IMG/VR virus record: IMGVR_UViG_3300042554_000903
Coordinates: 1 to 36,457 of that record
Reading direction: 5' to 3' (one strand)
DNA: 36,457 bases
Source: a virus
Under the pieces are notes generated by a model, which saw nothing but the letters and a program-made list of their open reading frames with translations, ran no database searches and was not told the DNA's origin. Both the position numbers and the translations under genes were made by a program. Positions 16,005 through 35,261 of this stretch are shown in pieces. The number at the start of each line of letters is the position of its first letter. The stretch's first letter is position 1.

Positions 16005-16282
16005 ATCACATGAATCAACATGTGTTCATTAAAGTTGTTTTTGATGTCGTCTCTCCGACTGTCATGACTAAAGGTTGTCTCCCGTAGGAGGCCGATAGTC
16101 AATTCTTCCATCGGGAATCGAACCCGAACTCTTCGGCATGTCGCCTATGTCCTGACCACTGGACTATGGAAGCAGATGGACCAGCCGTAATACGCCTCAT
16201 AAGGACGTAACAGAGGGCTGGCCTCTATCACACATGTGACCACATTGCTGTGGATTTCAGCCCGATTAGTGCTTTACGGGAA
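16005..16282 (-). promoter_or_regulatory. Late intergenic control region upstream of the capsid gene
   Basis: This is one of the larger non-coding gaps in the late region and sits where T7 has promoter phi10. It holds the tRNA-like element, a CTCC-cgta-GGAG hairpin (16079-16090), the 8-bp palindromes GTCATGAC (16061-16068) and CACATGTG (16231-16238), and AGAGG-gctgg-CCTCT (16212-16226). The minus strand near 16267-16281 reads TTCCCGTAAAG; its CCCGTAA matches, from memory, the 3' part of the Syn5 RNAP promoter (ATTGGGCACCCGTAA). TACGGGAGACAAC on the minus strand at about 16074-16086 resembles the start of T7 phi10 transcripts. A phage promoter here is inferred, not shown. Confidence 0.45.
16103..16173 (-). 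tRNA. tRNA-like element with a degenerate anticodon arm (possible pseudo-tRNA)
   Basis: Minus-strand sequence folds into much of a tRNA: acceptor GCTTCCA/TGGAAGA (6 of 7 pairs, G-A mismatch at 1:72), D-arm GTCC-AGTGGTCA-GGAC, and a perfect T-arm TCGGG-TTCGATT-CCCGA. Only 21 nt separate the D- and T-arms. The best anticodon stem there (TAGGC/GCCGA, one mismatch) closes a 5-nt loop GACAT, not the usual 7-nt loop with U33, so no anticodon can be assigned. CCA is not encoded. It may be a decayed tRNA or a tRNA mimic used for RNA processing. Confidence 0.55.
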
Positions 16283-34448: not shown

Positions 34449-34744
34449 CATTCGGGAAGGTAGTTAATCGTTCCGATAATGGAGTTGGTCAAGATTGTGA
34501 CCTCATCATCAGACAAAGCATGATCTCGTATGCGGTTGTGAGCCTTTGACTCCAGCTTGTATGCATACTCTTTCAGTTTGTTCTGCTTGCGGTCATAGAC
34601 ACGAACAACAGCACAGTAAGGATCAGGAAGATGCCATTGCATGACTTCCTCCATCACTTCCTCAACTGTTGCTGTTTCGATGTCGTTGTCGCTTAGGTTG
34701 TGCACCTCCTCCCATTCGTTGGGAAATGGATCTTTCTTGGCCAT
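34448..34744 (-). CDS. Early hypothetical protein, 98 aa
   Basis: It reads MAKKDPFPNEWEEVHNLSDN onward and ends TNSIIGTINYLPE. Residues 15-40 are acidic (TATVEEVMEEVMQWHLP), the middle is YCAVVRVYDRKQNKLKEYAY, and the rest is helical. The alternation suggests an alpha/beta fold. It precedes the 55-residue ORF with start-stop overlap. Position in the early region suggests a host-takeover role, which is inference. Confidence 0.78.
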   Translation of the reverse strand: MAKKDPFPNEWEEVHNLSDNDIETATVEEVMEEVMQWHLPDPYCAVVRVYDRKQNKLKEYAYKLESKAHNRIRDHALSDDEVTILTNSIIGTINYLPE

Positions 34745-34868
34745 ATGATGGGAGCTTAAAGCATCGTTCTAGTTCCTGGATTGATTCCAGATCACCTTCG
34801 CAGTCAACAAGGCATGCATTGAGCATGCAGAATTGACGGCTTAGGCGTTGTTGTAGCGGTTCAGGCAA
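34662..34868 (-). CDS. Possible small early protein with TTG start, 68 aa
   Basis: It reads (TTG)PEPLQQRLSRQFCMLNACL onward, with AAGGA nine nt upstream of TTG. The first ~40 residues look protein-like (LVDCEGDLESIQELERCFKL). The last ~27 overlap the 98-residue gene and are low-complexity, which weakens the call. Confidence 0.33.
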   Translation of the reverse strand: MPEPLQQRLSRQFCMLNACLVDCEGDLESIQELERCFKLPSYGQERSISQRMGGGAQPKRQRHRNSNS

Positions 34869-34910
34869 GGAGTTGAGTCCTTGTGTGTACGGCAGCCTTT
34901 TGCTGTCGTG

Positions 34911-34955
34911 GAAGAAAAATAAGAGGGGGCGTTACTTCACGCGCCACAACTCCCC
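34911..34955 (-). terminator. Probable intrinsic terminator after the RHH gene 3' region
   Basis: Minus strand: GGGG and GTT pair with AAC and CCCC across one mismatch, with a 14-nt loop, followed by TCTTATTTTTCTTC. The stem is imperfect but the U-rich tail is good. Confidence 0.5.
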
Positions 34956-35087
34956 TTGGGCGAGGATCCACTCTCAACAGCGGTGGATCGGTGCTTCTTA
35001 TGTAGCCGTGGTGAGGGCTGCTCCGGCATTCGCTCGGGATCGCTCCCGATGCATCAATAATGCCGCAGCCCTCCACTTCTGCAACGC
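34911..35087 (-). ncRNA. Candidate structured non-coding RNA or 3' UTR downstream of the RHH regulator
   Basis: The stretch has no good ORF but folds strongly. Hairpin 1: GTGG, AGGGCTG and CGGCATT (35008-35030, with 2- and 3-nt bulges on one side) pair with AATGCCG, CAGCCCT and CCAC (35059-35076), 18 bp in all. It encloses TCGGGA-tcgc-TCCCGA (35034-35049). Hairpin 2: GATCCAC/GTGGATC (34965-34971 with 34983-34989). Then the terminator at 34911-34955. On the minus strand this begins 11 nt after the RHH stop codon, so it may be a long 3' UTR or a separate RNA. The symmetry also allows a DNA cruciform role. Confidence 0.35.
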
Positions 35088-35261
35088 TTACCGGCCAGTC
35101 CTTGGATCGTCACACAGGGCACGCTCCACTAGGTACGCCACAAGGTTGGACATGCTGCGTCCCTCCTTCTGTGACCGCTCCTCCACACGCTGAAAAACCA
35201 CCCCGCTCAACACCACTGTGAGCCGTTGGGTGGTAGTGCGCTTGTACTTGCGTGCGTTCAT
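35088..35261 (-). CDS. Ribbon-helix-helix (CopG/Arc-type) regulator, 57 aa
   Basis: It reads MNARKYKRTTTQRLTVVLSG, then VVFQRVEERSQKEGRSMSNL and VAYLVERAL. This fits RHH: a basic beta strand (RLTVVLS), helix 1 (VVFQRVEERSQKEG), the turn (RSMSN) and helix 2 (LVAYLVERAL). These proteins dimerise and bind short palindromes. The ATG at 35261 is chosen over an in-frame start at 35339, which would begin beside the terminator. A GTACA-tg-TGTAC palindrome lies 48-59 bp upstream, so autoregulation is plausible. AAGGA is 18 nt before the ATG, a rather long spacing. Confidence 0.8.
   Translation of the reverse strand: MNARKYKRTTTQRLTVVLSGVVFQRVEERSQKEGRSMSNLVAYLVERALCDDPRTGR

Follow-up and report, generated by a model that had tools for sequence, protein, structure and literature searches.

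The window, a viral contig of 36.5 kb (36,457 nucleotides), carries all of its main genes on the minus strand. Among them are tail and capsid genes and the genes for a DNA polymerase, a primase/helicase and an ssDNA-binding protein which, like all genes outside 32.7–36.1 kb, were identified by their translations and by synteny with Synechococcus phage S-SRP01. This freshwater T7-like (Autographiviridae) phage from Singapore is the sole phage record with a DNA match around the element described below. The genes flanking the element and those further downstream are:

upstream of the RHH gene, minus strand: DUF7227 protein gene
35088-35261, minus strand: gene for an RHH (Arc/CopG-like) regulator of 57 amino acids, directly upstream of the RNA element
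34662-34868, minus strand: small ORF (MPEPLQQRL...), directly downstream of the RNA element
following the small ORF, minus strand: gene for a 98-amino-acid protein (phrog_9569)
following the phrog_9569 gene, minus strand: MarR-like regulator gene (phrog_9665)
33829-32714, minus strand: integrase gene (int; Pfam Phage_integrase)
32406-30073, minus strand: T7-type RNA polymerase gene, named from translation and synteny with S-SRP01

The RHH protein matches Pfam RHH_5 (E 1.4e-9) and a PHROG Arc-like repressor (E 6e-5). The element between its gene and the small ORF was found in 22 IMG/VR contigs and in the isolate S-SRP01, always at the same place and in the same orientation. Wherever the contigs extend far enough, gene order and orientation are constant (DUF7227 gene, a palindrome at 35371-35345, RHH gene, RNA element, small ORF, 98-amino-acid protein gene, MarR-like gene and int, followed by an attP-like tRNA-Leu match at 32574-32534 and the RNA polymerase gene). 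The small ORF is encoded in 19 contigs, and the RNA element directly precedes it in 19 of 19. Since the RHH gene is damaged by an internal deletion in S-SRP01 and frameshifted in contig 3300020220_000127, with the RNA element retained in both, the latter is not a mere tail of the RHH gene.

An earlier note on this DNA had described three hairpins on the minus strand between 34911 and 35087, namely a bulged stem enclosing a tetraloop hairpin, a 7-bp hairpin and a terminator-like end with a U-rich tail. All of them were found at these positions. Together with the parts recognised from the relatives, the element comprises:

35013-35074, minus strand: 5' bulged stem (18 bp) with outer GGGCTGC/GCAGCCC, enclosing P1
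35034-35049, minus strand: P1, a variable hairpin with a loop that is often GCGA (as here), missing or reduced in C alleles
35005-35027, minus strand: P2, with GCCG/CGGC in allele A (the one present here), GCAGG/CCTGC in B and GCCGG/CCGGC in C
34965-34989, minus strand: P3, a 7-bp hairpin (GATCCAC/GTGGATC) with a nearly invariant 11-nt loop (CGCTSTTGAGW)
34957-34961, minus strand: invariant GCCCA linker
34924-34956, minus strand: P4, a terminator-like stem (GGGG/CCCC here) with the conserved loop GTGGCKYGTSARTNAAC
34910-34922, minus strand: U-rich tail TTATTTTTCTTCC after P4, present in all relatives
34890-34908, minus strand: P5, a CGACAG/CTGTCG-type hairpin after the U tail, the pairing of which survives sequence change
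34866-34883, minus strand: P6, a hairpin adjoining the UUG/GUG start of the small ORF

The minus-strand stretch 35087-34911 was calculated to fold with a minimum free energy of -75.5 kcal/mol, compared to -58.6 kcal/mol (sd 4.7) in dinucleotide shuffles (z -3.57), none of 200 shuffles being as good, in line with its earlier description as strongly structured. Most weight had previously been given to the 18-bp stem. This stem is present here, but its outer part is limited to this phage and one near-identical contig, the relatives having GAGACGC, GAAACAC and other sequences at this position, and the conserved core of about 120 nt (P2, P3 and its loop, GCCCA, P4 and its loop, and the U tail) lies 3' of it. 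The z values for single-sequence folds of the relatives are only -0.1 to -2.3. With a phage-specific outer stem and such modest values, the real evidence for the element is covariation and not fold energy. Every relative has a pyrimidine- or U-rich run after P4, and the contig at locus L008 contains an extra textbook hairpin inserted immediately before the U tail. The conserved structure extends past 34911, as P5 (CGACAG/CTGTCG, CGACAAG/CTTGTTG and other variants) and P6 reach to the next start codon. P6 includes a Shine-Dalgarno-like AAGGA inside the hairpin in one clade and is formed by other hairpin sequences in other clades.

Covariation was analysed in 14 distinct cores. P3 and P4 were paired in 96–100% of cases and were both recovered by RNAalifold unprompted. 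Compensatory changes in homologues had been named beforehand as the test of the structure, and seven pairs, three in P3 and four in P4, have both partners changed in one or more sequences, which establishes these two helices. For P3, P4, the two-pair base of P3 and a possible GCYA/UGGC contact taken together, 98.8% of the cells were paired (88.5% in shuffled alignments) and 24 cells had double changes (8.4 shuffled), counts that are inflated by kinship among the sequences and compared with shuffles that ignore the tree; by eye, there are about three independent events in P3 and four in P4. The covariation score for the same set was 0.353, compared to 0.154 in shuffled and at most 0.165 in slid controls, and was reached by none of 500 shuffles. 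In P3, GATCCAC/GTGGATC is replaced by GAGCCAC/GTGGCTC at loci L038, L039, L049 and L063 and by CCAAC/GTTGG at L036, while the P4 stem reads GGGG/CCCC in allele A, GCCGG/CCGGC in B and GGGAG/CTCCC at L011. P2 shows a single compensatory pair across the three alleles. The GCYA/UGGC contact, considered as a pseudoknot, is always complementary yet nearly invariant and overlaps P2, and is therefore unsupported. Among the wobble cells in P3 and P4, 13 are G.U and 3 are A.C. As G.U far outnumbers A.C, the pattern points to an RNA made from the minus strand; the DNA cruciform or origin-like site also proposed in the earlier note is not borne out.

The stretch had been called non-coding, and a coding role can be dismissed. 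No frame stays free of stops across the stretch in all relatives, the stops occur in shifting frames, and the indels are not in multiples of three. Within the P4 loop (34949-34932, minus strand), alleles A and C contain a very short frame reading UUG/AUG-UGG-CGY-GYG-AAR-stop (M-W-R-V/A-K), in which UAA changes to UGA and AAG to AAA among relatives and which has a good AGGAGG-N6-AUG start at L036. It is not retained in allele B, and it is possible that it is a minigene or that it arose by chance.

The core occurs in divergent alleles, A and B being about 74% identical. Locus L004 (allele A) and locus L007 (allele B) have flanks that are 97% identical downstream and 88% upstream, whereas L007 and S-SRP01, which both carry allele B, are 95% identical in the core and only 78% and 73% in the flanks. 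Overall, the core is 92–97% conserved between phages with flanks of 73–78% identity. L063 and L039 are mixed, with a 5' part of type B and a 3' part of type A. Divergent alleles within phages that are up to 97% identical in the flanks show that the core moves between phages as a module. Chance mosaicism of an element under strong constraint could explain this exchange, as could selection for different specificities.

Outside this group the element was not encountered. No family in Rfam 15 reached its gathering score in the window and five relatives except for a tRNA, and no match better than E 1 was obtained for the region of the element in the window, which agrees with its earlier naming as a candidate for an undescribed element. 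A search for the hairpin motif in 84,980 species genomes gave nine matches, all of them at chance level and devoid of the flanking element, and the element was not found in a plasmid search. With a covariance model, only noise was obtained in the early regions of S-TIP37, S-TIP28, S-CBP1, S-CBP2, S-CBP3, S-CBP42, P-SSP7, P-GSP1, S-RIP1 and the lake phage DSL-LC07. In the early regions that were sampled, marine T7-like cyanophages lack the RNA, even where the genes around int are the same. With a broader motif pattern, the true homologue on contig 3300044641 (L036/L081) was found again, together with one new contig, which was a chance match. The element is a genuine, conserved and structured RNA that lacks an Rfam family; its function, discussed in the following, is what we infer.

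The reading favoured here, tentatively and at slightly less than even confidence, is that the stretch forms the central part of a structured leader acting in cis, a conditional attenuator of the operon of small ORF, phrog_9569, MarR-like, integrase and RNA polymerase genes. It is suggested by P4 and its U tail, the short promoter-poor gap behind them, P5 and P6, and the strict synteny. Transcription from the RHH gene would first yield P1 to P3 as an ordered domain with invariant loops. The polymerase would next reach P4 and the U tail, which resemble an intrinsic terminator and lie upstream of a gene, termination itself being predicted. Alternatively, P4 would fail to form and read-through into P5 and P6 would follow, P6 covering the next ribosome-binding site. 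The choice might be set by the folding of P1 to P3 or by a ligand or factor binding their invariant loops. The gap between the U tail and the start codon of the small ORF measures only about 40 nt and holds P5 and P6. No recognisable promoter was found in it, so that expression of the genes behind it probably requires read-through; the P4–P5 stretch may contain a hidden promoter of cyanobacterial or phage type. In allele A, pairing of CACGGCUACA with UGUGGC-G-CGUG of the P4 loop could serve as anti-terminator. Constrained folding indicated that this alternative (S3:S4), which occupies the P4 loop, is preferred in allele A, while B alleles prefer P2, P3 and P4 together. Since S3:S4 is strong in A alleles but has no more than 4 bp in B and C, a switching mechanism common to all alleles stays putative. 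The large P4 loop, the replacement of the GC-rich P4 stem at L036 and the single compensatory pair behind P2 count against the leader.

A trans-acting phage small RNA ranks close behind the leader, though taken by itself it is rather doubtful. The transcript of the RHH gene would end at P4 and its 3' part of about 120–170 nt would remain as a stable RNA, through release or protection, with conserved loops that would act on targets or proteins of the phage or the host. The terminator-like 3' end with its U tail, the strongly conserved single-stranded loops and the conservation of the core relative to its flanks are all compatible with this, and alleles swapped as a unit are expected of a specificity determinant. 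However, the element always occurs with the same ORF downstream, its conserved hairpins continue beyond the U tail as far as the start codon that follows, and no promoter of its own was recognised. The small RNA or 3' UTR suggested in the earlier note is possible, but a leader acting in cis agrees better with the strict synteny with the small ORF and with P5 and P6, conserved hairpins that extend to its start codon. The two readings are compatible, because a leader that has been terminated can function in trans as well.

In T7 early mRNA, RNase III sites are located between the early genes, and a plain terminator with an RNA-processing or stability element of this kind, acting without conditional regulation, might be considered here as well. 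The hairpins likewise lie between early genes of a T7-like phage, this phage has a long bulged stem, and partial termination alone would account for P4. Such a role is nevertheless improbable, as the long stem is not conserved and the cyanophage RNA conserves loops as well as stems, the invariant CGCTSTTGAGW, GCCCA and GTGGC...AAC exceeding the needs of a processing site or terminator. An element acting as DNA (cruciform, replication origin, attachment site or repressor operator) is very hard to maintain despite the inverted repeats and the nearby genes for an integrase and a DNA-binding protein, given the excess of G.U over A.C variation, the chance-level occurrence of the hairpin motif in species genomes and the location of the attachment site elsewhere.

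The tRNA-gene identity next to int, which led us to reject the RNA element as attachment site, falls at 32574-32534 (minus strand), between int and the RNA polymerase gene, where the sequence matches the 5' half of a tRNA-Leu (GCGGATGTGGCGGAATTGGTAGACGCGC...) and is likely to represent attP. The match downstream of int is shared with P-SSP7 and S-TIP37, and its core GGCGGAATTGGTAGACGC follows int in P-SSP7, S-TIP37, S-CBP1, S-CBP2 and S-SRP01.

Terminator-type riboswitches and attenuators resemble the proposed leader in that an ordered domain with invariant loops is followed by a terminator hairpin and a U run ahead of an operon. In contrast to those in Rfam, cyanophage and cyanobacterial motifs included, the cyanophage RNA matches no family, and a ligand for it is hypothetical. 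In the immI region of P22, the RHH repressors Arc and Mnt occur together with the sar antisense RNA, and P1 and P7 have the c4 RNA. These systems are similar in placing a small structured RNA beside a small RHH regulator, and allelic RNA differences can set specificity in them. The resemblance is an analogy only, and no antisense target was found for the cyanophage RNA; with nearly identical flanks in A- and B-allele phages, there is no co-varying neighbouring target. The nearest functional analogue for a nascent-RNA control of early phage transcription may be the put RNA of the lambdoid phage HK022, a nascent antiterminator RNA of about 70 nt with two stem-loops, which binds the zinc-binding domain of the RNA polymerase beta' subunit and suppresses distant terminators (PMC9378689). 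Like put, the cyanophage RNA would be a structured element of early phage transcripts that controls terminator read-through, but it is longer and has its own terminator-like end, which sets it apart from the described architecture of put.

According to Shitrit et al., the T7-like cyanophages studied carry integrases and integrate without lysogeny, and no repressor homologue was found (PMC8776855). With regard to how these phages control the choice of integration, the freshwater sister group, both in the isolate S-SRP01 and in uncultured phages, has an RHH gene of the Arc-like type and, immediately in front of the integrase and RNA polymerase genes, an RNA that is supported by covariation. The two are candidate regulators in this group, the RHH gene being broken in the sole isolate. 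A more far-reaching version, in which a new phage RNA-switch class and the RHH repressor decide on expression of the integrase/RNA polymerase operon and the exchangeable A and B alleles set the input or immunity specificity, is speculative and unlikely. If it is true, such a switch would supply some of the regulation that has been reported as missing in T7-like cyanophages integrating without lysogeny. In any case, a structured RNA without an Rfam family is added to a virus group with few known.

Several features were observed upstream of the RHH gene. The palindrome at 35371-35345 (minus strand), in the gap behind the DUF7227 gene, is a strong 11-bp terminator-like hairpin present in all relatives with differing loops. 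At 35295-35271 (minus strand), CGTTACGACA...CAAGGACGCACC is likewise found in all relatives with a 3-nt variation in spacing. The sequence CGTTACGACATCACAAGGACG was rejected as a T7-type promoter, since it recurs in the genome no more often than expected by chance and its spacing shifts by 3 nt among phages. A GTAC-N4-GTAC palindrome at 35320-35309, a possible operator of the RHH protein, has variable inner bases, is kept in phages sharing the RHH type and is missing from others. In S-SRP01 (MW015080, 5648-5812, locus L080), an annotated CDS of 54 amino acids, which shares sequence with the terminator and with the leader of the broken RHH gene, is probably spurious. A lone tRNA gene of the window (16102-16174, minus strand) was called as Cys with the anticodon ACA, which is odd for a bacterial or phage tRNA-Cys.
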